DNA of 64,000 bases from Lepisosteus oculatus (Eukaryota > Chordata > Actinopteri > Semionotiformes > Lepisosteidae), in the NCBI RefSeq assembly GCF_040954835.1, contig NC_090711.1, positions 17,355,001 through 17,419,000 on the forward strand. Reading direction: 5' to 3'. Positions 14,231 to 56,110 of this stretch are shown here, piece after piece. Numbering within the stretch: the first letter of the stretch is position 1; each line of letters opens with the position of its first letter. The notes under the pieces are model-generated. The model saw only the letters and a list, made by a program, of their open reading frames with translations. It was not told the DNA's origin and ran no database searches. The translations under genes were made by a program, and so were the position numbers.

Positions 14231-17200
14231 ATGGAGTATCTTCGCATTTTCTTTCATTACTTCTGGGGATGGTTGGACGTTCGAAGTATTCTGTTATTTT
14301 CTTTCGTGTTTTTGGTTCTGGGCGATGTTTTTAAAAACAAGATGCCGAAAGACTTTCCACCAGGTCCCATGGGTCTACCTTTCCTCGGAAATATCTGGGA
14401 TTTTGATGCCGCGAAACCTCATCTGTATATGGCTAAGGTACACTGTATATTTGTTTAAGGTTTTGTAACCAGAGACTGAACACGGGTAAGATAATACAAG
14501 GTGAAACTATGAAAAAAAATAACCCCACCCGATTTGGCAGCGTCTGTGCGGAGTTGTTCAGTACATTAGCTCCTTCAGCACTTTCAAGCCTGACCAGTTT
14601 AATTCGTTTACTTGCCTTTTTATTACTCGTTTTCTCTGTAATATTATGAGAATTATTGTTAACGTTCCTCTGTTTTGGGGGATGGGGGTTGTTATGTGAG
14701 GGTCCTTTAAAACTTGTTTTTGGACGTTTATAACACTAAAATGCAGTTTATGACGACAATCCGGAAGGTATGTCAACATCCAAGTTCAATCAACCTCAGC
14801 AGTTAGTAATTTGTAACCATTCCTGATATCATTTCCTCACATAAAAAACAATAATAATAATAATAATAATAATAATATGCATAATGTGGAATCCTGACAT
14901 AATTCCCTCTTCCTCTAATACACTATAAATACTGTATGTGATCCCCTTCTCTCTCTCACATATGTCTTTTTACATGGACTGTGATATGACCCTGCTTTAT
15001 CATATCTTTTTTTCCCACTTTGCAATGGATATTCTTGTTTGCTGATCCAAGTGAATAGTTGTTGCTTTTTTTGTCTCGGCCAGGAATCTCCAGCTCTTCA
15101 CCTTCTGCCTGTACCTGCATGTGCTCCATCTGCTCCTTTGCTGTCTAAGTTCCTCTCTGTTCCAACCCTGTCTTGTTTGTGTCTCTATCCTTGGTGTCCA
15201 CTTCAGCCCTGTGTTCATTCCTCTCCTCCCCTGCTGTTCCTGATGTCATCTCCTTGGCCCCTGATCCACTTTCACTTTACCTACATTCGAGCAGGTTCTG
15301 TAGCTCCAGGTTGCTGCTGCTTCATGGTCAGTGCAGCACCTTCTCAGTTACAGTATTATAACTGGAAGGAAGAGGTTAATAATAGTCCATGTAGCAAACA
15401 CACCATTCTGTGTCATTGTAGATCCTCAGAATTGTGTTACCTTGAGGTTATGCTGGGTGCAGCCTGTCATGTGTAATGTTTAGATATCTATCAACATAAA
15501 ACGTAGGTAAACGATAAAGGTTGAATAACTCAGGAGAAAGAACTTCCTCTCATTTAACACCCTTTGTTAATTGTTTTATTTAAAGAAAATAAATCCACCG
15601 TACTACTTTGGCCTGTCAACAAAATATTTTATGACACACCTGAAGAAGGCTCCACGGCCGAAACGTGTTTTCTTTCTTCTTTTTTTTCAGCATGGAATAA
15701 ACTTATTACTTGTTCCTTTGCAACAAAATATTTGACATGCTTACTGCCGATTCACAACTAATTCTCGGATTGAATCAGTTCCAAAAGGAGCAATCCTTGC
15801 TGCCATTTGTTTTTTTGTCCAGATAAAGCAGTTGTCTGGAGTAAAATGTTTTAGCCATGATACTGTTCCACTAACAAAATGAAAGTTTGTTTTACTTATC
15901 TGAAGACATGTCAGGTCTTCAACGATTGACCACCTGGGGTGTAGACTAAAAAGTTAAGATCTTGCGCCTGTATGATTAGTTCCATTCTCTAAAATCATGA
16001 GTTAGCAAGAGAAATAGGTATCTTATTTTATGTGTGCAGCTCAAGTAATAAAAAAGAAAAGGGAATTTTGAGGTTTCAAACTTGCCTTCCCGTAGAACTA
16101 TGTTCCCACAATACATTGCACTTTTTGTGGTAACGATTTTTTTTTCTGATTTTCTGGTAACAGCACCAGTAGAGTGGTCAGAAAACTCATAATTATTGGC
16201 AGTTATAGTAAGTGTGTTAAAATAGACTCTACTCTCTAATCAAACCATCACCAAATATTCACAACTCTGCATGGGGGTCCTAATCCTCTTCCTATGATCT
16301 TAGCTCTCACCAAGAGGGTTAAGCCAAATTTTGACTGAACACTTGACAATCGTTTCAGTACACTTAGTTTTTAGGTGTTGTTTTTCTTAGTGAACAATGA
16401 TTTATCATATTATATTCAAGTATTTCACAACTTTTCAGCTGAGCTAAAAGCATTTGCAGCTCTCCTCAAATATGGTACTATAAAAAGCTGTTAGAACATT
16501 TAAATTGAATATCTAATGTACTTCACATCCAATATTTATACAATACAATACTATATTTCCACTTCTCAATAGTATATAGAAAATCAGCTTGTAAGGTCTA
16601 AAGTTCAACCATTTTTCAATTATTGAGGTTATATGACATATGAATGATATCTCCCTTGATTTAAAATTACTTTTCCATTCAGCTTGCAGAAAAATATGGA
16701 GATGTATTTACCATCCGTTTGGGAACACGCTTTGTTATTGTAAACGGCTATAAACTGGTAAAAGAAGTTTTGGTTCATCAAGGAGGCAGTCTGACAGACC
16801 GTCCACCATTTGCAATGGGTGATGAGCTCACCAAAAACCAAGGTATTTACAGTAAATGATTTAAATAAGGAACATGTGCATCTTGCTCATAAGCATTCCA
16901 TCTCAAACCTGATCTGATTTAAAAAGCTATACATAGATGAAGAAAATCAGTGGCTCAATGTTGCAGATAGAACTGGTGTTGGGTGACTTCTATGACTTGT
17001 AAGTAGCACAACTTTGTACAAGGTATTTACAACCTCCTTTCATGTGTTGACAGGGACCATTCTTTTACTAAAGCTGTACACTAAGGTCTTTACTATACAC
17101 TCATTAAAGAAGTCGCAAAGTTGCAGTATCTAATTCTGACACTAATTTTGTTGCCCTCAATTAGCCACTATAATACTGTTGTTAAGTATATACTCTACTT

Positions 17201-20200
17201 TGTTGAGCCTTTTGCTTGTAAAAAGGAGCAGGTGGAGGTTAATTTTGTTCTTAAAAGTATAAAGAAGAAAAAAATGTAGTGTTCTAACTGTGAGTGTGAA
17301 GAAGTCTCATTTTGGAAAAAGAACTTTATCAAAGTTGGGTGTTATTAGGACCATGATTATGAAGTGCTAGTGGTATACATTTTCAGTTTTCAAAAAGCAG
17401 TTGTATTGTATATATTTGTGTGTAATGTATATGTACGTTCATTTTCTTAAACAAATGCATGTTTCATTGGATTATGAAAGATATTAGATACATTTCTAAG
17501 AAATTAAAATTATCGCTTTTTAATCTCTTTGGACACAAACGTTACATTGGTGCAGGCCCTATTTATAAATCTATAATGTACAACATGCAGGGTTGGTATT
17601 ATCCAATGGTTACTTATGGATGCAGCAGAGAAGATTTTCCCTTATGACTTTAAGGAATTTCGGTGTGGGCAAGAGGAGCCTGGAACATACCATTGTGGAG
17701 GAGTGCAGGTTCCTGAATGAGGCCATGGAGGATGAGCAAGGTATCTGTTACTGACCCAACTGATTTTTGTCCATGACTTGTGTGAGTGTCTTGTAATGTT
17801 ATACCAAAGGTGAACTGTTATGTTACTTTGCACAGGGCTGTTATTTCTCCAATGAGCTATGTTGTCAGTGTCATCTTTCTACTCATATCCATATTTGTTT
17901 CACTATAACTTCAGTACTATATACAGATGCAGCCATTCAAAATGGGTGAGGTATTTCGCGGCATACCCCGGTGTGCGGTATCACACGGTATCACACAGTG
18001 TCACCCAGTGTCACGTGGTTAATCGCGCGTCATTTGACGCTCTGCCGGAAACTATCCGGCGTCACCTTGTAAAACCGCCAGGGGGAGCTTAACCTCTCAT
18101 GTACAGCATTTGAGCCTTTAATTTTGAACTGTGTATTACAGCATGTTAATCATCAGTCATTAAAATGTTACTGTTCAGCCTCCATTTCTCTATAAAAAAT
18201 TTACTCTGTTGCACACACACACAATAGAAGCAGGAAGCAGAAGCAGGGACCGTTGTCAGAAGGGAAGAAGGTGACTATTCATTGTTATCAAAAATGACTT
18301 AGAATCGATCATGTTGCGATATTTTGAAATATAAAAGTCAATTGATTGTCCATAATATCGCTATACTATTATTTCGAAGAAATGTTTGTTAAAAGAAAAG
18401 TCCAGCACCAGCTGGATTCGAACACACAACCTGCCAGTTGTTAGTCAGGCACGTAGACCAGTAGGCTACAAGACAACTCGCATGAACAGGGAGGCGAAAC
18501 AGCCCTGTCGCAGTACACGAATATAATCATACCGTTATTAAATTCTTTAGATACGCGATTCCATATTATATTCCCTATTAATCAAATTCTAAAAGTATGC
18601 TTGTTGACTCCGGTATCACGTTAGTTAAAGACTTCGATGCTTAAAATGTTTAGGGAGAAATGAAATACTGGTGTGTATGTTCCAAAGTTCCAAAGTTAAT
18701 ATCGTTTATGGACTTCACACGCGTTGCAGTATGCTCCTATTCTTTTTATGCTCAGGCACTAAGATTTCCCTTCAGAGGTAAAATTCCATATAAATATTAA
18801 ATACTACAATGGACACAGTAAAGACTTTTACTGTAAATCTTTCTACGACAGACCAACGGACCACGAGTGCCCCTGTCGGTCAACCAATCACGTACCGCGG
18901 TACCCTGCGTCATCTTGCGTCACGATGCGCGACGCCGTAGCCAATTACCTCTGGTACGTGTCTGTACCGCGCACTTTGAATGGCTGCATCTGTATATATA
19001 GCTTTTATAGTTAAACACTTCTTTTAAGTATTTAAATGAAGGGCTAAAGGATTGTGCCATTGTGTGAGTCTAGAATAAACTATTACCTCGTGATCTTGCA
19101 TCCAATATTCTGGATTACTTCAAGAAATAGCTGGATTAAATCCTTGGATTAATTAATTACTAGAAACTGAACACCACAGATAATCCAAAAGACTCTCCTA
19201 TTGTTTGGAACATTTCTTTTGTTCTTTTGATTCTTTATCTCAAACCAGCATAGGGATATCTGTGATCAAACTTTACTGTAGTTTGCAGCTTGTACTATTA
19301 CTGTACACTGATGTATCATTTGTTATGTGCCATTTTAGGGAGGCCCTTTGATCCCCAGTTCATCATTCACAATGCTGTATCTAACATAATCTGCTCTGTG
19401 GTGTTTGGAAACCGGTATGAATACACAGACAGACGCTTTCAGGAGCTGCTGCATTTGATTGACGTAACATTAAAAATGCAGGTTACCATGTGGACCCAGG
19501 TGAAAACAGCATGTTTTTCTTTTCCTTGATGTAACTATAAGAAGATTCAAATAACATTTCCATGAAAGTCTTTGGCTTTCCAGTGAAGTGTTTAGATACT
19601 GTCCCTGGTTTGTGTTCTCAGTAATGTGTTTTATGTATGTAAAAAGATCCTACATAACGCACTCCCTGAATTGTTAAATTGAAGATCAAGAGACAGACAA
19701 ACTTCTCTGGACAGAATGTTCCTAAGACATCAGTTCCCTTAAAATCTGTACAGTTCAATCCAGCATACCAAGACCATCATCATAATTTAATCTGTCATCA
19801 CAAGGCTGTGAATTTAAAATTATTTGTGTATTTTATAAAGCTATCACATTCATAGTAGGCCTTAAGAAATGTGAAGATGCTGGGAAACATGGAAACATTG
19901 CTGTAATTTTTTACCACAATTAAAAGTAGGTACATACATCAGATGGAAACACAATTAAAAAAAAATACATGGTGATTTATGATGCATAAATGTTAGTGTC
20001 ATAATGGTTCTCTCTTGTGCAGCTGTATAATGTGTTTCCTACAATAATGAAGATAGTTCCTGGGCCTCATCACACTATCTTTTCAAATTGGAAGAATGTG
20101 ATTTCATTTGTGAAATCAGAGATCCAGGCTCACAAAGAAGACTGGAATCCATCCTGCCCCAGAGATTATATTGACTGCTATCTGGATGAGATTGAAAAGG

Positions 20201-23200
20201 TAAACCAAAGCCATAGTCCAGTCATATCAGGTAGTTGAGCAGTTGGCTAGAAATGCACTGCTTTTCCATGAAACTTCTACAGTTTATCTTAAAAAATGAG
20301 GAACTTCAAGTCAAAGTGACTGTTTATCGGAGTTGATAATGAAAATTAGGGGGAAGGGGACTCTAATTCTCAGTATACCCCAGTGTTGTTTATCCTATCC
20401 CAGTGTTCATTGTACTAGCAATCTCCCAGTCAACCAATTCAGCTAAACACCATCATCTTGCTTGCTGACAGTTCTCAGTTTCCTTATACCTGTCCCTGGC
20501 TGCTATTGATTTCTACTGCTAGTTAATACCCCTGACCTTTAGCAAAGTTTCAACTATAGCCATCTGCACCTGATATCTTGATACCCTACAGAACTACTTA
20601 TACAGTGTTTCAGATACTATTCTTTTAAATGCAATCATCTTAACTGCTGCTTCCTTGATATATGACAGCTGTGACATAATCATGTAATTATTCTGGATCG
20701 GTCATTCTTTTGAAGTCTTCCATGTCATTGTGTAATTATTCCTTAGGTGTTGCAGTTATTCAGTGAACTAGTGTAATAATATTCTAGCTCTGATTAATTG
20801 CTACATATGCTTCAATTGATAAAATGGTTTTGTCTAACAGAGGTGGAACCAAATGCTTACCAAGCTAAGATAGATATCCCTTATTTGCTTTTAAGTAAGC
20901 TTTTAAGTGCTTTGAGAAGCCACCTATTAGAATATTTTCCACAATATATTCCACAACTTAAATGCAATAAATTCCAAGGGATATACAGTATAGAATATTC
21001 TTCTGAATGTTCCCAGGATGTCCACAAAAATATTTCCTAAAACGGAGGAATGTCCAATGTTTCGTTTTTGAGTACTTTGAAACGTAAGATATTTTAGTAA
21101 ACAGGATTTGTTTTTCCACTTTCAGAGTAAAGATGATGTTGACGCAAAATTTGATGAGGAAAACCTATGTTTCTGTGTTCTCGATCTGTTTGTGGCTGGG
21201 ACAGAAACCACAGCAACCACACTATGCTGGGCTCTCCTCTTCATGACCAAATACCCAGAGATACAGAGTAAGTCAAGTGCGATGATCTTTTTGTCTAAAT
21301 TACATATTGAAAATTGACATTTTCATATCTTGGCCTTCAGTGCAAGGTTGATTCAGTGCAGGCTCTTCTTTCAGGAAAGCATATTTTATCACACATGATG
21401 TAGAATGTCATAAACATTTATGGGCTGTTCAAGGTACAACAGATACACAAAACAGATGTGATACAGAGTTAAAGCTCTTTAGGTTACAGCGTGGGGAGAA
21501 ATAAACCAACACCACAAAAATCAAACAAAACAAAAGCCTAGTTCTCTTTGTACGGATTTGTACAACTGTATAATTAAACTGTGTACCAGCAACAAAACCA
21601 AGTCTGTTCTGGGACTCTTCCAAAACGCAAGTGTCAAAACACTGCAAAAGGTCAACCATTCAATTCAATTCAATTCAAGGTGCTTTATTAGCATGACCGA
21701 TGGGTACAATCAGTGTTGCCAAAGCAAATAAAAATAATAAAATTAACATAGAACAAAACAAAAAATAGAAGTAAAATAAAATCTACAGACATGTTACAGA
21801 CATTTACAACAAAGACATATTATAAAATATTGACATATACTGTAGGCGGCTGGAGCATTATTGGGAGACAGACTCACTGTTCCTCAGGCTGTGACAGGAG
21901 ATCACATACTGGGCTGCCAGATCAACTGAGTTCCCTCCTCCCACTCCCAGTAGGATTGGGACCTGTTGTGGCTTTGGCAGGTGTGGGAACTCTGGGATTA
22001 GATTTCTGAATTTCGGGAAGAATGTTTCTCTAATCCCAGAGTATCTGTCACAGTGCAGTAGGAAGCGCACCTCTGTCTCTATTTCTCCCTGCTGGCAGTG
22101 GGAGCACAGCCTGTCCTCTCTGGGCAGCCAGGTCTGCCTGTGTCGCCCAGTTTCTATGGCCAGGTTGTGGTCACTGAGCCTGTACTTCGTCAGGGTCTGT
22201 TTCTGTTTGTTATTTTTTATTTTGGTCAAATATTCAGCTAGTGTGTATTGTCTGTTTAAGGTTCTGTAGCATTCCAGTTTATGTTGTGTTTGTGTGTGTG
22301 TGTCCCAGTGTGTGAGATATTGCTGTTTGATCTGTGCTGTGATGTGGTTGAGTCTGGGTTGTGGTGCTCTAGCAGTGCTGTCCTGAGGCTGGTTAGTGTT
22401 GGTGTGGCTCAGGTCGGTGAGCCTCAGGACCAGCTGGCTCAGGGGGCTCTGTTTTGGGCTCAGCTCTTGGCTCAGCAGGGCTTTGTGGTGGTAGGAATTT
22501 TGGTCACTGTTTTTTAGGTGTAGCCAATACTTTAATATTCTTTTCTGTATGTTTATCAATAGTGGGTACTGGCCTAATTCGGCCCTGCACCCGTTGTTAG
22601 GAGTTTTTCTCTGCACACGGAGGATGATTCTACAGATCTCCATGTGCAGAGTTTCTGTGGGGTGTTTGTCCCATTGGGTGTAATCCTGGTCTGTGAGGGG
22701 ACCCCACACTTCACTGCCGTATAGGGCAATGGGTTGGATTACACTTTCAAATATTTGGAGCCAGATTCTTGTTGGTGGGTTGATGTTGAAGAGCCTCCTT
22801 CTTATTGCGTAGAAAGCCCTGAGTGCCTTCTCCCTCAGTGCCTTCACTGCCCGGTCAAAACTCCCGGAAGAGCTGATGGTGAGACCGAGATATGTGTAGC
22901 TGGATGTGTGCTCCAATGTGTTGTTGTTCAGTGTGAATTTGTACCTGTTTCCCCGAGGTCTGGCTTTCTTCTGGAAAACCATAACTCTGGTCTTGTCCAG
23001 ATTGACTGTCAGTGCCCAGGTCTGACAGTACTGCTCCAGCAGTGCCAGGTTCTGCTGCAGCCCCTGTTCTGTGGGCGACAGCAGGACCAGGTCATCTGCA
23101 TAAAGCAGGAACTTGATTTCTGTGTCATGTAGTGTGAGACCAGGAGCTGCAGACTGCTCCAACATTCCTGCTAATTCATTGATATAGATATTGAACAGTG

Positions 23201-26200
23201 TTGGGCTCAGGCTGCAGCCCTGTCTCACCCCACGGCCTTGGGTGAAGAATTTAGTCCTTTTGTTTCCAATTTTCACTGCACATTTGCTCTCTGAATACAT
23301 TGATTTAATTATGTTGTACACTTTGCCCCCTATGCCACTTTGGAGTAGTTTATAAAACAATCTCTCATGCCAAATCGAGTCAAATGCTTTTTTGAAATCG
23401 ACAAAGCAGGCAAAATTTTTTCCTTTGTGTTTTTGGTGGACGTGTTTGTCTATCAGTGTGTGTAGGGTGTAAATGTGATCAGATGTGTGGTGATCTGGCA
23501 AGAAGCCAATCTGACTTTTACTCAGGACATTGTGTTCGGTAAGGAAGGCCAGTATTCGTGTTTTCAGGATACTGCAGAATACCTTCCCCAGGTTACTGTT
23601 CACACAGATGCCCCAGTAGTTGTTGGGATCGAGTTTATCTCCACTCTTATAGATGGGCGTGATCAGTCCTTGGTTCCAGGCCTCGGGGAAACATCCAGCT
23701 GTCATGATGAGATTGAGGAGTTTGAGCAGGGCTTGTTGCAACTTTGGGCTGCTGTGTCTCAGCATCTCATTTATGACACCATCATGGCCACAGGCTTTGC
23801 GTGGTCTGGCCTGGAGTTTGTCCAGTAGCTCCTGCTCAGTGATTGGGGAGTCTAAGGGGTTTTGGTTGTCTTTGATAGCCAATTCCAAAATTTTGAGTTT
23901 TTCATAAATGGTGTTTTTGTCTGATTGATTTGTATTTGGGAGCTTTTCATAGAGATTTTCAAAGTATGTTTGCCAGATTGTTCCATTTTGGATGGCCAAT
24001 TCTTCTGGTTTTGATTTGTTTAAGTTGTTCCACTTCTCCCAGAAACAGTTCTGATTTAGTGACTCCTCAATTTCTGCAAGTTGTTTGTCTATGTATGTGT
24101 TTCTTTTCCTTTTCAGCGTGTGTTTGTAAAGTTTTACCATGTCACAGTACCTGAGTTGCAGATCTGTGTTGTGTGGTTGTCTGTGTTTTTCATTTGAGAC
24201 TTTTCGTAGTGCATTTCTGATGTTTTTGCACTCCGTATCAAACCACTTTTCTTTTGCTTTTGTTTTTTGGTAGTTTTTCGATGTAGTTGTTTTTAGCTTA
24301 GATTTTGATGCTAGTTTGTGGAATAGGTGATTTAGTTTTTGTGTGGCCAAGTTTATGCCTAATTTGTTGGTTTGATACGGAGTGTTTAGGAATGTGTCCA
24401 TCAGTGTCTGAATTTCGTCATGGCCCAGTGCAGTTTGGTATCTGTCTATGCCTGGTTGAGGTCATACAGCTGGCTGGGCTGTGTCAGTGTGTCTCTGTGC
24501 TGGTGTGCTCTCTTCATGTAGAGTGTGATCTGGCTGTGGTCGGAGAGGGGAGTTTGTGGCCTGACAGTGAAGGCACTGATACAGGAGGGGTCCAGGTCGG
24601 TGATGGCGTAGTCCACCACACTGCTGCCCAGAGCTGAGCTGTAGGTGAACCTGCCTAGAGAGTCCCCTCTAGTCCTGCCGTTGACGATGTACAGGCCCAG
24701 CCCTTGACAGAGCTGCAGCAGCTCGCGCCCGGTGCTGTTGACCGTGGTGTCATGGCTGCACCTGTGTGAGGTGACCGGTGTGTGGTACAGAGGGGATTGT
24801 CCGAATATGTGAGTATTTCCCTGTGTGCTGGTGAAGTCTGCCAGTGTGCCTGTTCGTGCGTTGAGGTCACCACAGAGCAGCACGTTTCCCTGGCCCTGGA
24901 AGTGACTGATCTCTGTGTGGAGACTGGGGAGAATTACCTCACTGCAGTAGGGGGATTCTGAGGGCGGGATGTAGACAGCACACAGGAAAACCTCGTTTTC
25001 TGTACAGATGGTATTTCTTTTGATTTTAAGCCAAACTCGTGACTCTTCTTTCTTTACTAATTGTATGGAGTGACTGAGCTCCACTCTGTACCACACAATG
25101 ATCCCCCCAGAGTCTCTGCCCCGGGTGATTTGGGGTCTTTTGACAGAGGGCACCATGATCTCCTTGTAGCCTGGGGGACAGTGGGTAGCCAAGTCCCCCC
25201 GACACCATGTCTCCTGTAGGATCATGATGTCTGTCTCCTTTACATCCTTGATAAATTCAGGATCAGTGCTCTTCAGCCCAAATGCTGACGAGCCCAGACC
25301 CTGAATGTTCCACATACTTATCTTTAGAGATCTCATTGTTATCGTTTGAATTATCTTTGCAATTTGTTATTGTTTTCTGGAACTGTATCAAATTTGTGTC
25401 GGACATTTACATCATCAACAGAAACAAGTATTGTGCTGGGTTTTTGTCTGTCGCTGTGGGTGATGGAAGTTCAGCTCATAAGCCGGGTGCAGATGAGGTT
25501 CAGGAGCTGCCGGATTTCTCCCAGCTCTAAACCGCTCGGGACTGATGGTCTGGCCAGGGCTGCGGCGTAGCTGTGCAGGAGCGGCTCGGTCCGGCTCTGC
25601 TGTTGTGCTGGGTGGGGAGGGGTTGTGGTTCTGGTCCGGTTCAGCTGTTGGTCTGGGTGAGGGGCATGGGGTGGGGCGCTGGTTCTGGTCCTGTTCGGTC
25701 GTTGGTCTGGGTTGGAGGACTGTAGGGTGGTGCTGGTTCTGTTTTTTGTGGGTTGAGCTGGTCTGGGTTGGGGGTGTGGGTGCTGGGGCGTTCCTCTGGT
25801 AGTCCTCCTGTTTCTCTCTGGGATGCTGTTTGGGTGTCTGCCCAGTGTGGTGTCTTTCAGAGTTTTTGTGAAGAGTCCAATGGTCTGTTTTTTGAGGTGT
25901 TTATGGTCGTGTAGATGCTGTGGTCCAAGGGTGGAGTGATGGGCCAGATAGACGTTTGGGAGCAGGGCGCAGCACCATGAGATCTCGGCATTGATTCTCT
26001 GGATGGTGTGGTGCTGCTCGTCCTGTCTCGGCAGCAGGGTGAAGATGACAATTCGGGCGCGAGGGAACTCCTGTATGGCCCTCTCTGCCACTCTCCTGAT
26101 GGACTGGGCCACCTGCTCCCTCTGGGTCCTCAGGTCGTTGGTGCCGGTGTGGATGATGATGTGCTAAGGGGCTCCCAGTACCGACCTGGACAGTAGCTGC

Positions 26201-34899: not shown

Positions 34900-35038
34900 A
34901 TATCCCCCAAGATGATATTCCCCCCAGGAGGGTATAGAGGATATCCTCCAAGAGGTATCCAGGTAACAGTGAAACGGGCGTACAGCTTGGGGAAATCGCC
35001 CGTTTTCCATGTAAATAGTTCCCTGGTTCCACACCCCT

Positions 35039-35093
<55 letters not shown>

Positions 35094-35227: not shown

Positions 35228-35544
35228 GGATGGATTTGGAGACAAAATGTATTTACATTACACAGAGACTCAGTAGCAATAGCAATAGCAATTAGCAATA
35301 TAATATCAAAATAGCAATATTATGGACACACAATTGACTTTGTTTTTACTTTTTTTGACAGCTGGTTTTTGTTGACAACTTGACACAAGTTTATCAGTGA
35401 AAAGACCACGGGCATTCTTCCTCCCCCCTACATTCTCAGAGTAGAATAGAATTTATTATTAGCACAATTTATTACAGTGCTAAATTTAATATTATTGATT
35501 ACTAATAGTTTATGCTAAAAACCTAGCTTTCTAAATGTGAGAAG

Positions 35545-35610
35545 TACTACCGTAAGTACTGTACAGTAAGTATTCACTGTACTTACTGTACTTACTATAC
35601 TGTACTTAAG
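35545..35610. repeat. Cluster of short GTACTTACTGTAC-type palindromes
   Basis: Repeated TACTGTAC and GTAAGTA words in both orientations. Low-complexity hairpin-forming DNA in the middle of the foldback-like element. Confidence 0.5.
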
Positions 35611-40502: not shown

Positions 40503-40562
40503 ACAGATCACAGATCACAGACCTTTTTTATCTGTGATTTATTTTTTAATCTGTGATCTGTG
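40503..40562. repeat. Imperfect hairpin (CAGATCACAGAT... / ...ATCTGTGATCTG)
   Basis: CAGATCACAGATCACAGA is followed within 20 bases by its inverse, just left of the palindrome axis. Confidence 0.5.
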
Positions 40563-41251
40563 CTAAAAAAAACCGGTTGAACAACTCTCAAGCACCGGGG
40601 TGAAGTTAGCTTGAAGTTCGAAAACAATTTCGGCACACCTGTAGTGCTTTTACGAAACCTCCTAGGGTAACAAAAACACTTGCTTTGTGTATAAAGTACA
40701 TTGTGAATGTTTTCTCAGCCTTCACTTTGTCGTTTTTATGACTTTTTTTTGACCACGCACAAATATTATTTTGTCCATATCTTCTCAATGGAAACACAGA
40801 ACGCCTTCAAACCAAATGCATTTTAAAGACCGCCACTTGTGAAAATTTCCACAGACTCTACATCAAATTATCAGTGAGCTAATTTCAACGATGCGCAATT
40901 ATACACTAACTGGAACCGCTGTGTACACACGTTCACAACGCTAGAAATACTACTCAATACGGCTTCGTGCGAAAAACCTGTATATCACCATTGGAAGCAG
41001 AACAGCGCAGTCTCCAATTACCCAGACTGTAAGCACGGGAAAAAAGCTTTGTTTGATTTCTGAAACCCTTTCTTTACGTCCTGTTTTCATTCAGGTAAGG
41101 GTCAACTATATTTACAATAATGCTGACAGCAGGAAGATTCAAATATTCTTTACTCAGCAGCTTATTAAAAACAGCTCCCATGATGTTCAAACAGATTTTT
41201 TTTCACAGAAGACTGACACAGCTTTGCGTTCTGAATCTCTTTGTTCAGAAT

Positions 41252-41680
41252 CACAATGCTGCAAGTAAGTGTTTTACACAGTAAGCAGGTCCTCTGACCT
41301 TTCCAAGCCTTGCTTTGGCTTGTGAAACCTATTTTTTATTATTTTTTCAATATGGCACATTTAGACATGCAATACACTGGGATAGGTGGGTCTTCTTCAT
41401 GACTCAATAGCTTTTTAAGCACAACAGCTACAATGCTGCAACCAAGTGTTTTACACACCAGACAGTCCCCCTAACCTTATACAACCTTGCTTTGGGTTGT
41501 GCAACCTTTCTTTATTTTTTATAATTTTTTTAAAGATAACACTACAGGTAATACACTTGGATAGGAGGTCTTCTTATGACTCAATAGTTTTTAAGCACAA
41601 CAGCTACAGTGCTGCAACCAAGTGTTTTACACACCAGACAGCCCCTCTCACCTTTTACAACCTTGCTTTGGGTTTCAGAA
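41252..41680. repeat. Tandem repeat, period about 176 bp, about 2.4 copies
   Basis: The block GTGTTTTACACA plus 'ccttgctttgg' starts at 41269, 41446 and 41622, with 'gactcaatag' and 'cacaacagctaca' in each full unit. Confidence 0.75.
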
Positions 41681-42009
41681 ATCAAACAAAGAAATCAAAT
41701 CAAACAAAGCTTCATAGATTTCTTCATAGAAATAAAAAAAACGGCATAGTGAAGGCTGTGAAAACTGTCACAATGTACTTTGTACACAGAGCAAGTGTTT
41801 TCGTAACTCTAGGAGGTTTCGTGAAAAAGCTACAGGTGTGCCAAAAACATTTTCAAACTTCAGGCAAAATTTACCCCAGTGTGGGCACTGCATTACCCCA
41901 GTGTGGGTTCGTACCGCGAACTTTGAATGCCTGCATCTGTATATGGTGTGAAGTGAATGCAAAGGAATTGTATGTCAAAAATAAGAAGACAAAACCCAGT
42001 GAAGTTCCC

Positions 42010-42014
42010 ATCTG

Positions 42015-42064
<50 letters not shown>

Positions 42065-45005: not shown

Positions 45006-46448
45006 ATATGGTGTGAAGTGAATGCAAAAGAATCGTACATCAAAAATAAGAAGACAAAACCCAGTTAAGTCCCTCCCTCTCCCCTATCTTCTACTTTCCC
45101 CTTCCTCATCCCCTCCTCTCCATCTCTTTAAGTTATGAAACATAAGGGGAGACACAAAAGAAAGATTTTTTTTTTAAATCATTCAAATATTTTGTGCTTG
45201 CCGATGAAGTAATATAGGTGTCTTGGCTGTTTCAGCAATGTCCTGCTAAAATTGTTTCCCCCTGGGCCTTGTGTAGCCCTTGTGAAGCAACTTGAGTACA
45301 GAAACATTTCACCTCCCAACAGTCCTAAAAAATATGCATAAAAGTGCCCACAGCATCCCGAGAACACAGCATAGTTCCAATGGTGTCAATTTCATTAGAT
45401 ATCTTTTTTGTCAGATAAAATGAGATCTGTGGATGAGACTGAATGCATAAACTGATGATTTGGATTGCTGGAGACATAATGTATGTCAACTTTTCCCATG
45501 TTGTGTCCCATGTAATGTCATCTGCAGAAATCTAGCCCATGTATAGTGAACAGCTAATTTCTGATATCTTGCCTTCAAGAAAAGAAAATTTATTATTTAG
45601 AATTACTGTATTTTTCTTTTTACCAATATTTTTTAAAAATTCCTGCAACTCGTGCAATGATAACTGTATCCCTCAAGGTTCTCTGTAAGCATGAATTGCA
45701 GAACACTAATGCAGATACAAAAAGGAAGAGGTACCTTGAAATGTGTACTTTAATTTAAGGTCCTCAAATGTAAGCAGAGTAATATGTTCAATGATATCAT
45801 TGAAGTGTGCATGCCTCTATTTTTCCATAAAGAAAATGAAATAGGTTGATTAGACATAGCTACGATAAGACAGGAGATTAAACATACTGTATATCCAATA
45901 TGCAGTGCTTTAAGTCTGTAGTTGCATGTGACTGGGCCTGGTGTTTGTGGAGCTGGAATAATCCATAGAGGGGTCCATAACCATGTTGAAATCAGAGCCG
46001 AGCACTATTTTAAAATGAGACAAATGTAACACAAGTCTTAAAAAACAAACTTTATAAATTGTCCTTATAATCATACAAACCCTTTGAAAAATGTATCAAG
46101 AAGGTCCAGGGAGACAAGATATTGACAGTCATCTCTATACAGTATATAAACATGTCTGATGCTCATATCATATGCATACACCATTGGAACCTACAATAAC
46201 AAGATGGTTCTATTGAAGACGTTATCCTTAGAGATGCCTTGCAAAGCTAGCTGCAAGTCTGCATCTTTGTTTTAAATTGAACTGCTGGAAAGATAAAGCG
46301 CACAGCATGGGCTAACTGCTGACAGGCAAGGTCACCTCTGGATTATTGGAAAACACGACAGATGGAGTTCAAAGACAACGCTTACAGTGCTCTTTTATAC
46401 AGTGAAACAAGATACACTCCCACATAACTCTCTACTTGCATTGTGGTG

Positions 46449-46790
46449 TAAGAGGACACCGGGAAGGGCCACCCAGGATAACCAGCTGACCCACTATTGG
46501 AAAAGGCCTATGCAGCGAAACAAGGAGACACAGCTGAACTACATCAGGAAACGAGATATAAATGCCCCAGAAGCGGTGAGCCGGGGCGGAAGCCGATAAG
46601 GTGAATGCGTTTTGGAGGAAGTAGAGGTTTAGGATTGTGCTGGAAGGAAATAAAGAATAACGGACTACGGGATACAGTTTATGACTAAGATTTATGGATT
46701 ACGACTTGGATACGGTGCGGATTGGTGTGGACATCCGGAAATTTGGATCATTTAAGGATACTGGCAACGGATATCCTTATCCAGTATCCT
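46449..46790. other. Right-arm-specific segment replacing left-arm 31004-31637
   Basis: Flanks align to the left arm, but this 342 bp does not match the 634 bp at the same place there. It starts TGTAAGAGG and contains AATAAAG at about 46650; it might be a solo LTR. There are no genes in it. Confidence 0.4.
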
Positions 46791-47868
46791 GGGAAAGCTA
46801 AGGTTGCTGTTGAAAGAAGTGTTAGTAGGACCAGAAGGGGTCTGTTTGCATCCTAATGCCCTAGTATAGTGATGGGCACACTATACTGTAAAAAAGGGCT
46901 GTCCTTTGGTCCTTTGGAATGTCCTGTTGTGGGTGTCCCAGGGTATTCTCCAAGATAAAACTTGATAGACTAAAGTGTAAGGAAAGGTAATGCATTTGTG
47001 ATGATAAAATTGCTGGGGAAATGCATTGTTAGAAAGGCATTGTTTTACTTCTGGGTACAACAGTTAGGCTGTTTTAGTTTTGTCATCACGTGTTAGGAGT
47101 GTAAAGCAAACCAGGCGTATAGCTAGCTCTCTTTCTGGAGCTTACAATAAACCTGTGGATCAAAGGTCTCTCTAAAGAACTGGGGTAAGGCGGTAATCAA
47201 ATTACCTACTGTACCCGTAAACAAGCCTTTTCAGAACACTTCTCAGATCACACATACATTTCTGTATTACAGTACCTTTTTTTCCATGACCAGTCACTCT
47301 TCCAAACAAGACTGTATTGAAAATAAAACCTATAACCCATAATCAGGTCTCAAAAAAAGAGCTGTGTTTGCTGCATCCTTTTTTTGTTGCGATTCTCAGC
47401 CTCAAGTAATAAGAGCTGTCTCATAATGCAGGGGTTGAGCTAATTAGACGACCCCCCTCTGAGTGATTTCTGGCCAGTGTTGTTGTCCCACATGTCATGT
47501 CAAGAAATGTCACAAATCAAAAGAGGCCAATCAGCCCAAGCTGATGTTTTCAAGTACATATTTGATCTAAGGATCGTATTCAACCATTTCTTGAAATGGT
47601 ATCAGTTTCATCAACATCACTAGGCAGCCTGTTCCAGACCCCCACAGCCCTTATGTGTAAAAAAGTGTTTCCTACTCTCAGTTTTAAATGCATTTCCCAG
47701 TAATGTCAGTTTGTGTTCTCTGTTAGGGTTTCACTGTTGACTCTGAGGAAGTCCACTGGAGTGACTTTATCAATGCCTTCAAAGATTTGAAATACTTTAA
47801 TTAAATTGACCTTTTGAGATGCTCAAGAACTTAGTATATAACCTGCTTTAACTGCAAAGTTTTTTTTT

Positions 47869-50800
47869 CTAATGAGAGACAGCACAGATTTTCAGCTCCT
47901 TAGGGTAAAGTGTGGATCCCATCTTAAATTCCAGGCTGGGCTCCACGCCAGGGGAGGTGGGGAAATTGTGAACCTCTGAAGAAAAGAAGTGAAGAATAGG
48001 AACAACTCCATCCGAGCCAGTTGCTCCCCCAGACACACCCTCTTTCCTAGAGGAACAGAAGGTAGTTTAGGACTTGAAAGGATTTTTCATTTTACATTTT
48101 ACAGCATGGAAAATGTATCTGCTTAAAATATCTAGATGTATTATTCTTATAATAAAATGTCTAGCGTATACTGTATTAGGTTACACTAATGTTTACCTGC
48201 AGAAAATGGCATAAATGCATCCCTTCTGACAAACTTCCCATTTTCCTCTAGAAAGTGTTCAGGATTAAAATGGTGTGGTGTTTCCCACACATTCTTGTCA
48301 AAAAGCACAGAAGTTAAATTTCCAAAGATCTGTGTACCCTAAAAAAATAAATTACAACTTTAAATATTTATCAACTTTAACAATAGTACTCAAAACACTC
48401 TTAACAATAACATACAGCACAGAAAAGGAAATGATATCTGATACAAATGTCCAGAAAGGAAAGGAATCTTGCTAATGAAATTTAAATTCCATGTCAGTAT
48501 CTGATATCATTACAAGCAAAACCATTATGTAATCTCTTTTTATAAGTAAAGAAAGTTCAAGATTCATCTAGAGTGATTTATTTCTTGTGACTTTATTTTA
48601 ACTACTTAAAAAATCATTTCCCTATTCAATGTATTGACCTATTTTTTAGTTGAACTTTAGTACAACAGTTTCATTGTATGATTTAAGACCTACTTAGAAT
48701 AAGCAGCATGCATTCTGTTAAAATACTGTACATGTATTTTAACATTAAAGTTTATTTCACTTGGAATAACAACATCCAAGAGTTAAGTGTAGTGAATTTA
48801 TATAGTGTTTTAGTCACAGTAAAGTTTGCTCAGCCTGCTTGGCTGAAGGCCAGCCTCTGAGCATAGGGCAACAAGGCTACGACCCTTATGTGGAGTTAGA
48901 AGTGGTCAAGGGGCAGCTGCAAAGGTAGAAATGGGAAGGAGGAGGCATACAAAAGACATTTGCGAGGGAATTATGAGGATTTATTGTTTTTATGTTAGGA
49001 AATGATGTCAGGAATGATTACAAAGTTGGCTGAGGTTGATTGAAACTAGCTGCTGTCATTCCTCCCAAACTTTCATTATATACTCCATTAGTCTTACCTT
49101 TGGAAGAACGTAACCTCGTACAGTGATATCATTTGTTGCCATCCTGGGCAGGTTCAGAGGAACAATATTGCCCATCCTCTGGACTTCAGGGATCACAGCA
49201 TCAGTGTAGGGCATGTTAGCACGGTCTGCCATAGAGGGCTGCCGTCCCTGTCCAATGACTCTGTCTATCTCATCCTGGACCTTCTCTGTAAAAATCAACA
49301 GAGTAAGTAAAGAGGAAATCTTTCAATAGATTTATCTATTAAGCATAACATGAGCCCAAGTGAGAGATCTTCATTAGACTTAATGTACTGTATATACTAT
49401 GAATTTATATAGCCAACTGAGAGGGTGGTGGAATGAGACAAGTTCAGATTCTTGTCTCAACTATACTTGCCATCAGATAGAGATAGAGGGCAGATCCCCT
49501 GTTATGCAAGTAACGCCAGAGGGAGAGAGAGAATGGTTGACATTTTGCTGTGTTTTGACACTTGGGTTTTGTCCCAGAACAGACTTGGTTTTGTTGCTGG
49601 TACACAGTTTAATTATACAGTTGTACAAATCTGTACAAAGAGAGCTAGGCTTTTGTTTTGTTTGATTTTTGTGGTGTCGGTTTATTTCTCCTCACACTGT
49701 AACCTAAAGAGCTTTAACTCTGTATCACATCTGTTTGGTGTATCTGTTGTACCTTGAACAGCCCAAAAATGTTTCTGACATTCTACTCCATGTGTGATAA
49801 AATATGCTTTCCTGAAAGAAGAGCCTGCACTGAATCAACCTTGCACTGAAGACTCGGGGGCCAAGATATGAAAATGTCAATTTTCAATATGTAATTTAGA
49901 CAAAAAGATCATTGCACTTGACTTACTCTGTATCTCTGGGTATTTGGTCATGAAGAGGAGAGCCCAGCATAGTGTGGTTGCTGTGGTTTCTGTCCCAGCC
50001 ACAAACAGATCGAGAACACAGAAACATAGGTTTTCCTCATCATATTTTGCGTCAACATCATCTTTACTCTGAAAGTGGAAAAACAAATCCTGTTTGCTAA
50101 AATATCTTACATTTCAAAGTACTCAAAAACGAAACATTTGGACATTCCTCAGTTTTAGGAAATATTTTTGTGGACATCCTGGGAACATTCAGAAGAATAT
50201 TCTATACTGTATATCCCTTGGAATTTATTGCATTTAAGTTGTGGAATATATTGTGGAAAATATTCTAATAGGAAGTGTATGGATATATCAAGATATATTG
50301 CTATAAAAGGTAAACTGATTGATAAAAACCTAGGAAGCATTATTTACCTTCCATTAAATGGGGAAAATACAAGGACGATTCTTTAATAAGACCTTAAGGA
50401 TGACTAAGCTAAGCTTTAAGAAAAACATGATTAAACCAACACTGATACTTGCAAATAATAAAAATTGAGATTCATGAATTATGTGGACATAAGCCAGGAA
50501 CTGCAGTAACTAAAACAAGTTATTCAATTTCTAAGTTCTGCAGTCTTATTCCTATTTTTTTCCAGTAACATAGGTTAAAAAGTTGGGCCCTAGAAATGCC
50601 AGAAGAATAATAAAAAACAGCATTATCAGACATAAATGAGGAATCTGAGAAAATGGCCACATTATAAGAATAGCAGCAAAGAGACATTACTTAATAATAA
50701 TAATAAACTTTATTTTATATAGCACCTTTAAAGGTGGCTTCTCAAAGCGCTTAAAAGCTTACTTAAAAGCAAATAAGGATATCTATCTTAGCTTGGTAAG

Positions 50801-53800
50801 CATTTGGTTACACCTCTGTTAGACAAAAACATTTTATCAATTGAAGCGTATGTAGCAATTAATCAGAGCTAGAATATTATTACACTTGTTCACTGAATAA
50901 CTGCAACACCTAAGGAATTAATACACGATGACATGGAAGACTTCAAAAGAATGACCGATACAGAATAATTAAATAATTATGTCACAGCTGTCATATATCA
51001 AGGAAGCAGCAGTTAAGATGATTGCATTTCAAAGAATAGTATCTGAAACACTGTATAAGTAGTTCTGTAGGGTATCAAGATATCAGGTGCAGATGGCTAT
51101 AGTTGAAACTTTGATAAAGGTCAGGGGTATTAACTAGCAGTAGAAATCAATAGCAGCCAGGGACAGATATAAGGAAACTGAGAACTGTCAGCAAGCAAGA
51201 TGATGGTGTTTAGCTGAATGGTTGACTGGGAGATTGCTAGTACAATGAACACTGGGATAGGATAAACAACACTGGGGTATACTGAGAATTAGAGTCCCCT
51301 TCCCCCTAATTTTCATTATCAACTCCGATAAACAGTCACTTTGACTTGAGGTTCCTCATTTTTTAAGATAAACTGTAGAAGTTTCATGGAAAAGCAGTGC
51401 ATTTCTAGCCAACTGCTGGACTATGGCTTTGGTTTACCTTTTCAATCTCATCCAGATAGCAGTCAATATAATCTCTGGGGCAGGATGGATTCCAGTCTTC
51501 TTTGTGAGCCTGGATCTCTGATTTCACAAATGAAATCACATTCTTCCAATTTGAAAAGATAGTGTGATGAGGCCCAGGAACTATCTTCATTATTGTAGGG
51601 AACACATTATACAGCTGCACAAGAGAGAACCATTATGACACTAACATTTATGCATCATAAATCACCATGTATTTTTTTTAATTGTGTTTCCATCTGATGT
51701 ATGTACCTACTTTTAATTGTGGTAAAAAGTTACAGCAATGTTTCCATGTTTCCCAGCATCTTCACATTTCTTAAGGTCTACTATGAATGTGATAGCTTTA
51801 TAAAATACACAGCTAATTTTAAATTCACAGCCTTGTGATGACAGATTAAATTATGATGATGGTCGTGGTATGCTGGATTGAACTGCACAGGTTTTCAAGG
51901 GAACTGATGTCTTAGGAACATTCTGTCCAGAGAAGTTTGTCTGTCTCTTGATCTTCAATTTAACAATTCAGGGTGTCCGTTATGTAGGCCTTTTTACATA
52001 CATAAAACACATTACTGAGAACACAAACCAGGGACAGTATCTAAACACTTCATTGGAAAGCCAAAGACTTTCATGGAAATGTTATTTGAATCTTCTCATA
52101 GTTATATCAAGGAAAAGAAAAACATGCTGTTTTCACCTGGGCCCACATGGTAACCTGCATTTTTAATGTTACATCAATCAAATGCAGCAGCTCCTGAAAG
52201 CGTCTGTCTGTGTACTCATACCGGTTTCCAAACACCACAGAGCAGATTATGTTAGATACAGCATTGTGAATGATGAACTGGAGATAAAAGGGCTTCCCTA
52301 AAATGGCACATAACAAATTATACATCAGTGTACAGTAATAGTACAAGCTGCAAAATACAGTAAAGTTTGACCACAGATATCCCTTTGCTGGTTTGAGATA
52401 AAGAATCAAAAGAAATGTTCCAAACAATAGGAGAGTCTTTTGGATTGTCTGTGGTGTTCAGTTTCTAGTAATTAATTAATCCAAGGATCTAATCCAGCTA
52501 TTTCTTGAATAATACAGAATATTAGATGCAAGATCACGAGGTAATAGTTTATTCTAGACTTACACAATGGCACAATCCTTTAGCCCTTCATTTAAATACT
52601 TAAAAGAAGTGTTTAACTATAAAAGCTTTATATATGGTACTGAAGTTATAGTGAAAGAAATATGGATATGAGTAGAAAAATGACACTGACGACATAGCTC
52701 ATTGGAGAAATAACAGCCCTGTGCAAAGTAACATGACAGTTCACCTTTGGTATAACATTACAAGACACTCACACAAGTCATGGACAATATCAGTTGAGTC
52801 AGAAACAGATACCTTGCTCATCCTCCATGGCCTCATTCAGGAACCTGCACTCCTCCACAATGGTATGACCCAGGCTCCTCTTGACCACACTGAAATTCCT
52901 TAAAGTCATTAGGGAAAATCTTCTCTGCTGCATCCATAAGTAACCATTGGATAATACCAACCCTGCATGTTGTACATTATAGATTTATAAATAGGGCCTG
53001 CACCAATGTAACGTTTGTGCCCAAAGAGATTAAAAAGCGATAATTTTAATTTCTTAGAAATGTACCTAATATCTTTCATAATCCAATGAAACATGCATTT
53101 GTTTAAGAAAATGAACGTACATATACAGTACACACAAATATATACAATACAACTGCTTTTTGAAAACTGAAAATGTATACCACTAGCACTTCATGATCAT
53201 GGTCCTAATAATACCCAAAATTGATAAAGTACTTTTTCCAAAATGAGACTTCTTCACACTCACAGTTAGAACACTACATTTTTTTCTTCTTTATACTTTT
53301 AAAAACATAATTAACCTCCACCTGCTCCTTTTTACAAGCAAAAGGCTCAACAAAGTAGAGTATATTCTTAACCACAGTATTATAGTGGCTAATTGAGGGC
53401 AACAGAATTAGTGTCAGAATTAGATACTGCAACTTTGCGATTTCTACCATGGAATCTTTAATGAGTGTATAGTAAAGACCTTAGTGTATAGCTTTAGTAA
53501 AAGAATGGTCCCTGTCAACACATGAAGGGAGGTTGTAAATACCTTGTACAAAGTTGTGCTACTTACAAGTCATACAAGTCACCCAACACCAGTTCTATCT
53601 GCTACATTGAGCCACTGATTTTCTTCATCTATGTATAGCTTTTTAAATCAGATCAGGTTTGAGATGGAATGCTTATGAGCAAGATGCACATGTTCCTTAT
53701 TTAAATCATTTACTGTAAATACCTTGATTTTTGGTGAGCTCATCACCCATTGCAAATGGTGGACGGTCTGTCAGACTGCCTCCTTCATGAACCAAAACCT

Positions 53801-53880
53801 TTTACCAGTTTATAGCCGTTTACAATAACAAAGCATGTTCCCAAACGGATGGTAAATACATCTCCATATTTTTCTGCAAG
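47869..53880 (-). pseudogene. CYP2J-like pseudogene: exons 2-9, no exon 1, two frameshifts
   Basis: Inverted copy of the gene at 14231-29914. Exons (transcription order): 53723-53880, 52813-52962, 52137-52297, 51438-51614, 49927-50068, 49098-49285, 48197-48338 and 47869-48046. All splice borders are kept and exons 3-8 remain open at canonical lengths. Exon 2 is 158 instead of 160 bp (2-bp loss in the KLVKEVLV stretch). Exon 9 is 178 instead of 176 bp (2-bp gain after the haem loop). Exon 1 is absent because homology stops in intron 1 at 56053. Substitutions include Arg to Cys in exon 2 (GTR to GTC), Asp-Pro to Tyr-Leu at the start of exon 4, and His to Pro directly before the K-helix Glu. The haem loop with its Cys is intact. 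Confidence 0.92.
50269..50745. other. Intron 5 segment present only in the right arm
   Basis: Left-arm 20920-20930 joins directly what is about 450 bp apart here. The segment includes an antisense copy of the CTGTAAAGCGCTTTGAGAAG-tail repeat (50695-50745). Either a deletion in the left arm or an insertion here. No gene seen. Confidence 0.45.
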
Positions 53881-53941
53881 CTGAATGGAAAAGCAATTTT
53901 AAATCAAGGGGGATATCATTCATATGATATCTCATATGACA

Positions 53942-54061
53942 CAGCTGAAGAAGGCTCCATGGCCGAAACGTTGTGTTTTTTCTCTCTTCTTTTTTTCAGC
54001 ATGGAATAAACCTATTACTTGTTCCTTTGCAGCCTACGCATGCTGACGCAGCTACCCACCT
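53942..54061 (+). mobile_element. PLE terminal insertion, right arm only
   Basis: A 120-bp PLE end (AGCTGAAGAAGGCTCCATGG to GCTACCCACCTGA) in pseudogene intron 1. ATCATTCATATG occurs on both sides as a target duplication, with a short scrambled stretch at 53930-53941. The left arm has the empty site at 16636-16650. Confidence 0.8.
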
Positions 54062-55003
54062 GAATCATTCATATGTCATATAACCTCAATAATTGAAAAA
54101 TGGTTGAACTTTAGAGCTTATAAGCTGATTTTCTATATTGAAAAGTGGAAATATAGTATTGCATTGTATAACTTTTGCGTGTGAAGTACATTAAATATTC
54201 AATTTAAATGTTCTAACAGTTAAAAGAAAAGGTGCTTTTTATAGTACCATATTTGAGGAGAACTGTAAATGCTTTTAGCTCAGCTGAAAAGTTGTGAAAT
54301 ACTAGAATATAATATGATAAATGATTGTTCACTAAGAAAAACAACACCTAAAAACTAAGTGTACTGAAAGGATTGTCAAGTGTTCAGTCAAAATTTGGCT
54401 TAACTGTCTTGGTGAGAGCTAAGATCATAGGAAGAGGATTAGGACCCCCATGCAGAGTTGTGAATATTTGGTGATGGTTTGATTAGAGAGTAGAGTCTAT
54501 TTTAACACACTATAACTGCCAATCATTTTGACTTTTTCTGACCACTCTACTGGTGTTGTTACCGGAAAATCAGAAAAAAATACAAAAATTGTAAAAATTG
54601 TTACCAGAAAAAGTGCAATGTATTGTGGGAACATAGTTCTATGGGGAGGCAAGTTTGAAACCTCAAAATTCCCTTTTCTTTTTTATTACTTAAGCTGCAC
54701 ACATAAAATAAGATATCTATTTCTCTTGCTAACTCATGATTTTAGAGAATGGAACTAATCATACAGGCGCAAAATCTTAACTCTTTAGTCTACACCCCAG
54801 TCGGTCAATCTTTGAAGACCTGACATGTCTTCAGATAAGTAAAACAAACTTAAATTTTGTTAGTGGAACAGTATCATGCCTAAAACATTTTTCCTCAGAC
54901 AACTGCTTTATCTGGAGAAAAAAACAAATTACTCCTTTTGGAACTGATTCAATCCAAGAATTAGTTGTAAATCGGCAGTAAGCATGTCAAATATTTTGTT
55001 GCA

Positions 55004-55088
55004 AAGGAACAAGTAATAAGTTTATTCCATGCTGAAAAAAAGAAGAAAGAAAACACGTTTCGGCCGTGGAGCCTTCTTCAGGTGTGTC
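55004..55088 (-). mobile_element. PLE terminal fragment, palindrome partner of 15636-15722
   Basis: Inverted match including the GGCCGAAACGTG variant shared by both copies. This places it before the duplication. Confidence 0.7.
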
Positions 55089-55360
55089 ATAAAATATTTT
55101 GTTGACAGGCCAAAGAAGTACATTGGATTTATTTTCTTTAAATAAAACAATTAACAAAGGGTGTTAAATGAGAGGAAGTTATTTTCTCCTGAGTGATTCA
55201 GCCTTTATCTTTTACCTACATTTTATGTTGATAGATATCTAAACATCTCACATGACAGGCTGCACCCAGCTTAACCTCAAGGTAACACAATTCTGAGGAT
55301 CTACAATGACACAGAATGGTGTTTATGCTACATGGACTATTATTAACCTCTTCCTTCCAC

Positions 55361-55722
55361 AGCAGTTTAAGATTCTCAAACATCTGCTAATGAAAAAAGA
55401 CCCTTGATTAGAGCTATACTCATTTTCCAGTGTTTTCTCCAAGACATGTGCTGACATGGTGGCACAGCTCGGCTTGCTTTTCAGTAAGCAAAAGCAAAAA
55501 TGTTCAAAAGGGTCTGCAAGCAGCGTGCAGTCTTTGGCAATGGGTTCATTTTTTCTTCCTACTGAATGAACAACAAAAAGAAAGATGTTCTTACATTCAG
55601 ACACTTCACATTCACTAATTCAATAATAATAATTCACTAGGAACAAAAACATCAAAGAATTAAGCATATTGAAAGATTTACAGTACAAAGTGTTTCAGTC
55701 ACAGTAAATCCTTCCAGCTATA
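55361..55722 (-). other. Right-arm-specific ~360-bp insertion with an open frame
   Basis: Absent from the left arm (site near 15362). The GGAAGGA string occurs at both edges, resembling a target duplication. A minus-strand frame spans 55604-55323 (93 codons, starting MSECKNIFLF), but its last codons are flanking sequence and I recognise no family. Confidence 0.4.
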
Positions 55723-56049
55723 TTACTGTAACTGAGAAGGTGCTGCACTGACCATGAAGCAGCAGCAACCTGGAGCTACAGTACCTGCTCGAATGTAGGT
55801 AAAGCGAAAGTGGATCAGGGGCCAAGGAGATGACATCAGGAACAGCAGGGGAGGAGAGGAATGAACACAGGGCTGAAGTGGACACCAAGGATAGAGACAC
55901 AAACAAGACAGGGTTGGAAAAGAGAGGAACTTAGACAGCAAAGGAGCAGATGGAGCACATGCAGGTACAGGCAGAAGGTGAAGAGCTGGAGATTCCTGGC
56001 CGAGACAAAAAACCCAACAACTATTCACTTGGATCAGCAAACAGGAATA

Positions 56050-56110
56050 TCCACTCGACCTCAGGGTTATAAGTCAGTCACTTAAGCGATCACGCCACCG
56101 AGGCAGTCAT
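56050..56110 (-). other. Truncated tRNA-like module
   Basis: The minus strand reads GGTGGCGTGATCGCTTAAG, an anticodon-like loop CTTATAA and CCCTGAGGTCGAG, then joins CYP2 intron 1 sequence before box B is complete. Confidence 0.4.

Follow-up and report, generated by a model that had tools for sequence, protein, structure and literature searches.

How a cytochrome P450 gene came to stand tail to tail with a mirror image of itself, and whether this arrangement belongs to the genome or only to its assembly, is the question raised by a 64-kb stretch of the Lepisosteus oculatus genome, C16:17355001-17419000 (contig NC_090711.1, here C16; the whole stretch is called the window, and positions without a contig name are its own). 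Positions 15026-56053 of the window are an inverted duplication. We conclude that this palindrome is very probably real and of middle age, with one intact and one dead P450 copy.

The preliminary description of this DNA had proposed an imperfect palindrome at 15026-56053, and self-BLAST of the 64-kb window indeed placed the outer limits of the chain of inverted matches at exactly these two positions. The matches run colinearly from 15026-15370, paired with 56053-55709, inward to 38483-39357, paired with 45858-45006, at 89-98% identity with gaps counted. Self-BLAST and block alignment delimit a left arm (15026-39357, plus strand), which holds exons 2-9 and the 3' flank together with some stretches without a right counterpart, and a right arm (45006-56053, minus strand). 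The arms are very unequal in raw length, with large one-arm stretches on both sides: left positions 21662-28277, a long interspersed nuclear element (LINE), face only about 20 bases on the right, left positions 32196-38482 (6.3 kb) face only about 11, and right positions 42012-45005 (3 kb) have no left counterpart. Across the nine blocks that include the axis repeat, 277 substitutions were counted in 9,939 positions (2.79%; 144 transitions and 133 transversions), together with 39 indels. The eight left/right blocks, without the axis repeat and overlaps, gave 268 substitutions in 9,609 positions (2.79%), of which 25 fall within exons (1,294 positions) and 243 in noncoding sequence (8,315 positions). 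The noncoding arms are thus 97.1% identical, in agreement with the close match of introns and spacers announced by the preliminary description and with its reading of an inverted duplication rather than two old paralogues. Two old convergent paralogues would be conceivable insofar as CYP2 genes are often clustered and P450 exons resembling those of the left gene lie on another contig, C9. However, this C9 sequence, the next relative, is 5.6-5.8% away over the compared stretch, and the 97.1% noncoding identity of the arms led us to reject this explanation, to which we assign almost no probability.

The left arm carries the intact gene. Located at 14231-29914 on the plus strand, it comprises nine exons (14231-14437, 16683-16842, 17591-17740, 19339-19499, 20023-20199, 21126-21267, 28503-28690, 29445-29586 and 29739-29914), GT/AG borders at 8 of 8 introns, and a single open coding sequence of 1,503 bp predicted to encode 500 amino acids. 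CYP2 genes typically have nine exons of usual lengths, and those of the left gene (207, 160, 150, 161, 177, 142, 188, 142 and 176 bp) match them. The haem-cysteine motif of P450 enzymes, FxxGxRxCxG, is present in the translation as FSAGKRVCLG. By convention, assignment to the CYP2 family calls for amino-acid identity above 40% with one of its members; because the product scores 480 bits against Pfam p450 (PF00067) and shares 207 of 464 aligned residues (44.6%) with the CYP2R1 chain 3c6g_A, the left gene is assigned by its predicted product to this family. Its best matches in the Protein Data Bank (PDB) were CYP2R1 and CYP2B4, and no CYP2J was present among the 39 PDB sequences matching it at E up to 1e-80.

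The right copy, at 47869-53880 on the minus strand, retains splice sites for exons 2-9 on the opposite strand (53880-53723, 52962-52813, 52297-52137, 51614-51438, 50068-49927, 49285-49098, 48338-48197 and 48046-47869). Exons 3-8 have the same lengths in each arm (150, 161, 177, 142, 188 and 142 bp), as the preliminary description had noted, but exon 2 measures 158 bp on the right versus 160 bp on the left, and exon 9 measures 178 bp versus 176 bp, so that the right copy is frameshifted twice (-2 bp and +2 bp, respectively). No exon 1 was found in the right arm by tblastn across the window, and the outer right breakpoint falls within intron 1. The right copy is accordingly described here as a truncated CYP2 pseudogene. 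Of the two CYP2J-like copies previously proposed, the left one stands as an intact gene, while the right one is headless and frameshifted.

The palindrome is present a second time. Genome search and sequence comparison showed that window positions 1-57583 (plus strand) are colinear, insertions aside, with C16:17168860-17255425, a second copy of the palindrome and its flanks. This upstream palindrome has the same arms, the same axis and the same exon-2 frameshift, which is common to both right copies, while the exon-9 frameshift is absent upstream; its left gene is likewise intact, with 500 amino acids. The offset between the copies is about 157-168 kb inside the palindrome and rises to about 192 kb upstream of it. 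The flanks match too: upstream the match extends to the limit of the compared sequence, where 17145004 pairs with 17336942, and downstream it ends at 17295624, paired with 17461330, at the start of an element in the second copy whose direct terminal repeats (99.2% identical) measure at least 712 bp. In the 1.2-Gb assembly (813 contigs), the exon 7-9 region was found near-identically at four sites, each of them on C16, and with 89-92% identity at one site on C9 (best 40 of 1,629 candidates, the remaining entries being short or far weaker). Long matches to the exon-1 region were confined to the two left arms and to C9, where identity was 82% (best 40 of 398 candidates, the other entries being short repeats). 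As a separate observation, C16:17265426-17271466 showed only 0-3 differences from the second copy in each 2 kb over a length of about 6 kb, while other stretches stand at 2-3%.

This second palindrome bears directly on the possibility of an assembly artefact, namely a false inverted join of two haplotypes or a chimeric read. Inverted repeats are a known class of such artefacts, as the preliminary description pointed out, and the palindrome is known here from assembled sequence alone. However, its arms are 2.79% apart and carry different insertions, exon 1 is missing from the right arm, changes in the right copies are neutral (see below), and the 324,000 bases analyzed on C16 contain no N, the window itself consisting of A, C, G and T only. 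Moreover, the same axis and arms recur in a diverged copy some 157-168 kb away, so that one false join does not explain the palindrome. We therefore regard an artefact as very improbable. The concern is in this way largely answered for the palindrome itself, and the haplotype question shifts one level up, to the repetition of the whole palindrome together with its flanks, a level not visible to the preliminary description.

Comparison of the four arms (L1 and R1, left and right arms in the window; L2 and R2, those of the second palindrome) relied on ten common blocks, amounting to 9,112 gap-free columns. Two-against-two sites numbered 164, distributed as 155 L1L2|R1R2, 8 L1R1|L2R2 and 1 L1R2|L2R1, and 4 further sites had three states with R1 and R2 identical. 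Because 155 of the 164 sites group left with left and right with right, the pattern indicates that the palindrome formed first and was copied later. Pair distances were 2.76-2.89% between left and right arms, 1.75% between L1 and L2, and 0.49% between R1 and R2.

These comparisons could be rooted with C9:16007919-16028117, the closest relative found of the gene and its 3' flank, which has the left-arm order and broken exons 7 and 8. Its exon 7 has in-frame stops and its exon 8 a stretch with 5 gap columns, while exon 9 is open; on account of these stops and gaps, the C9 gene copy is classified as decayed. Over 2,419 compared bases, it lies 5.6-5.8% from all four arms. Among 2,299 gap-free positions, 106 separate C9 from all four arms, 17 changes are shared by R1 and R2 and 8 by L1 and L2, 14, 9, 1 and 5 are private to L1, L2, R1 and R2, respectively, and 8 other variable sites fit no class. 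Root-to-tip counts over these positions were 22, 17, 18 and 22 for L1, L2, R1 and R2. Such similar counts place the split between L1 and L2 before that between R1 and R2, and faster evolution of the left arms as the origin of the larger L1-L2 distance was rejected on the same counts.

The older L1-L2 split is one of the points in favor of the other haplotype, set in tandem during assembly, as the source of the second palindrome, rather than a true duplication with a period of about 157-190 kb. Colinearity also runs on for tens of kb on each side, and copy-to-copy divergence is strongly uneven, with 0-59 substitutions per 2 kb (0-3%) and a variance-to-mean ratio of 11.3, as for alleles of differing ancestry (42 full 2-kb bins were counted; 18 partial bins and one overlapping block were excluded). 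On the other hand, several large insertions differ between the copies, and non-allelic conversion between true tandem copies would leave the same mosaic. The absence of any N in the 324,000 bases spanning both copies means that no assembly gap lies between them, whereas false duplications, in the parts of PMC9516828 used here, are most often separated by such gaps. The junction of the two large copies was not found: the sequence just after C16:17295624 is a high-copy repeat, and the best 40 of 10,501 candidates for it included no other near-identical site on C16. We consider a tandem duplication and a pair of haplotypes equally probable; either way, the palindrome was assembled twice with the same axis. 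This stretch of the assembly may hold both haplotypes in tandem, in which case P450 gene counts would be inflated.

The two kinds of gene copy seem to have evolved differently. Coding changes were assigned by majority of the four arms, with one mixed site (codon 84) excluded. Changes in exons 2-9 found only in one or both of the right copies comprised 19 replacement and 5 silent ones, which matches the 78.4% replacement expected neutrally from the site counts (p = 1.0); the changes of the right copies therefore fit neutrality. Changes private to the left copies in the same exons comprised 3 replacement and 7 silent ones. With all exons taken together, the two left genes are separated by 8 silent and 8 replacement changes, the latter being below the neutral expectation (p = 0.011), and the left gene looks constrained. 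The right copies are altered at 18 codons, 17 of which could be aligned to CYP2R1; the left gene keeps the CYP2R1 residue at 12 of these 17 and differs at 5. The right-hand "CYP2 gene" should not enter gene counts.

Superimposed on the left-with-left pattern, short patches deviate from it. The longest stretch without a left-versus-right site covers 719 positions (19746-20488) and contains 11 other variable sites; with the 4 three-state sites counted in the L1L2|R1R2 class, which brings it to 159, such a length was reached by only 2 of 5,000 random placements. Six of the eight L1R1|L2R2 sites cluster in 19536-19987. Between 30117 and 31007, L1L2|R1R2 sites amount to only 1 in 880 positions, and with C9 as root, the right-arm state is found in L2 and not in L1 at sites 30333, 30393 and 30741. 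These patches display the site pattern left by arm-to-arm gene conversion, which we propose as the mechanism.

The axis consists of an inverted repeat of 302 bp, 96.7% identical, found by self-BLAST, whose left half (39290-39590, plus strand) comprises 68 bp of arm flank and about 233 bp that look like the end of an element starting TACAGATGCAGGC, and whose right half occupies 41707-42008 (minus strand, 42008-41707). Between them lies a repeat-rich spacer of 2,116 bp (39591-41706), which according to self-BLAST and the genome search includes repeats found elsewhere. The two halves differ at 2 sites in the 68-bp part and by 7 differences and 1 gap in the element part (233 bp). The element ends starting TACAGATGCAGGC resemble those at 17923, 18993, 32544 and 37463. 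Homology with C9 ends at 39358 and a high-copy repeat starts at 39589-39590, so that the mirror point coincides with element borders, a position that speaks for fold-back priming at the inverted ends of the element. At the axis point, C9 reads CACCATATATATACTG, which corresponds to an uninserted site; its flank beyond that site (about 1.2 kb) had no match at E 1e-3 in 324 kb of C16. Between this axis and the rest of the right arm lies a LINE fragment (42012-45005, minus strand), whose low end carries a (TTA)n stretch and which matches RVT_1 in 42402-42884 (E 4.5e-17). It is flanked by a 68-bp direct repeat (41941-42008 and 45006-45073) and contains a nested element at about 43475-44881, bordered on both sides by CTCTAGAG, which we take to be hAT-like.

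We propose the following scenario, which we consider probable as a whole, from fold-back at the inverted ends of the element through copying and conversion. The starting point would be a CYP2 gene on C16, with the decayed C9 copy as its closest relative in the genome. A break beside an element with inverted ends, just 3' of the gene, may have led to fold-back and to primed copying of the flank. The resulting mirror image would comprise exons 2-9 and the 3' flank, copying having stopped in intron 1. In line with the replacement and silent counts, the mirror copy without exon 1 would then have drifted and gained frameshifts while the original gene stayed constrained. The palindrome, of which two versions exist in the assembly, would later have been duplicated in tandem or be carried by two haplotypes; short stretches would have been exchanged between arms by gene conversion, as the site pattern suggests, and transposons kept inserting into single arms, as the one-arm insertions attest. 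The palindrome itself would need no function, although a hairpin-RNA role of the convergent pair was considered as a hypothetical alternative. More tentatively, and with slightly less than even confidence, we suggest that the inverted ends of a single DNA-transposon-like element offered a ready-made hairpin from which at least 11 kb of flank was copied, the element thereby becoming the axis of a germline palindrome that was later copied and whose arms exchanged sequence. If true, DNA-transposon-like elements with inverted ends would be seeds of vertebrate inverted duplications.

The order of these events at the axis deserves caution. In another scenario, a fold-back without spacer at the AT-rich, self-complementary CACCATATATAT came first, and a transposon-like element then landed on the axis. 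The CACCATATATATACTG of C9 is indeed short and self-complementary and would make a plausible TA target, and a TA repeat was read beside the related element at 17923-18993 by comparison with its empty site. This would nevertheless require an independent insertion exactly on the axis, and the 302-bp repeat with its 2.1-kb spacer already fits a fold-back; later insertion thus accounts for the axis less economically, and we consider it unlikely. Divergence of the element ends (7/233) is similar to that of the arms, so that age does not separate fold-back from later insertion. The C9 site, which lacks the element, fits either order of element and palindrome, so that the inverted homology may or may not predate the duplication. 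Several further points weigh against the fold-back scenario proposed above. Later insertion at the axis would also account for the coincidence of element border and mirror point. Within the axis flank of 68 bp, the right-arm copy differs at 6 sites from each of the other copies, which differ from one another at 2, and the inner ~250 bp of the right arm (45006-45250) are 83.6% identical to C9, versus 94.9% for the left; these differences point to axis events more complex than one clean fold-back. The 68-bp direct repeat around the LINE fragment is long for a target-site duplication. Concerning conversion, site 29981 shows the opposite of the three sites named above, with the right-arm state in L1 and not in L2 (C9 as root). 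Finally, all of this evidence comes from assembled sequence.

Other insertions distinguish the arms. The LINE in intron 6 (21662-28277, minus strand), with frames matching endonuclease (7.5e-10) and reverse transcriptase (2.8e-40) profiles, is absent from the other three arms; a tandem repeat as the cause of the skewed 22-28 kb stretch was rejected, this stretch being the LINE. The element at 17923-18993, with ACAGATGCAGCCATTCAAA inverted ends, lies in the left arm, and sequence comparison showed an empty site in the right arm. At C16:17204256-17209897 and 17183362-17188869 lie two elements that are both bounded by direct terminal repeats (about 410 bp, 98.8% identical); one of them is located within intron 2 of the left gene in the upstream palindrome, and the left gene of the window lacks it. 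Outside the palindrome, two repeat copies at positions 3700-4576 and 4719-5523 form a compact inverted arrangement (94.8-98.4% identity); their reading frames have no Pfam match and resemble those of Penelope-type elements. No RNA gene was found in the window at Rfam gathering scores, and no tRNA by ARAGORN (bacterial code). Elsewhere in the genome, another P450 gene appears to be present twice in convergent orientation, its exons running in mirror-image order and both copies scoring similarly (C4:35928702-35934712, plus strand, and C4:35975888-35983026, minus strand), possibly a second inverted duplication.

The locus constitutes a rooted natural experiment with four arms, which brings together an intact gene, a neutral mirror copy and an outgroup with an uninserted axis site, and whose sequence allows one to work out in what order transposon, fold-back, copying and arm-to-arm conversion acted. 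This kind of palindrome is already known and belongs to ordinary segmental-duplication biology, although it is unusually well rooted here and its own structure dates it well. As in an ordinary segmental duplication with a CYP2 pseudogene, the copy is partial, without exon 1, frameshifted and neutrally changing; unlike it, the pair is inverted tail to tail and present twice. In the parts of PMC3907307 used here, human inverted duplications have spacers of 766-70,466 bp (median 3,428), inverted homology at the spacer edges, and inverted pairs of LINEs or short interspersed nuclear elements (SINEs) at 3 of 21 junctions. The 302-bp inverted repeat and 2.1-kb spacer fit this fold-back signature: here too, inverted copies surround a short single-copy spacer edged by inverted homology, and the 2,116 bp of the spacer lie inside the published range. 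However, the human fold-backs described there are large, lie beside terminal deletions or translocations and come from patients, whereas the present palindrome is interstitial and of much smaller size, and the inverted homology found here, unlike theirs, looks like the two ends of one element. Mammalian sex-chromosome palindromes, as far as the portions of PMC8981503 and PMC3723533 used here describe them, likewise have long gene-bearing inverted arms with signs of arm-to-arm conversion, but their arms are more than 99% identical, compared with 97.2% over 9,609 positions in the window, where signs of conversion are confined to patches and the intact gene survives in a single arm.

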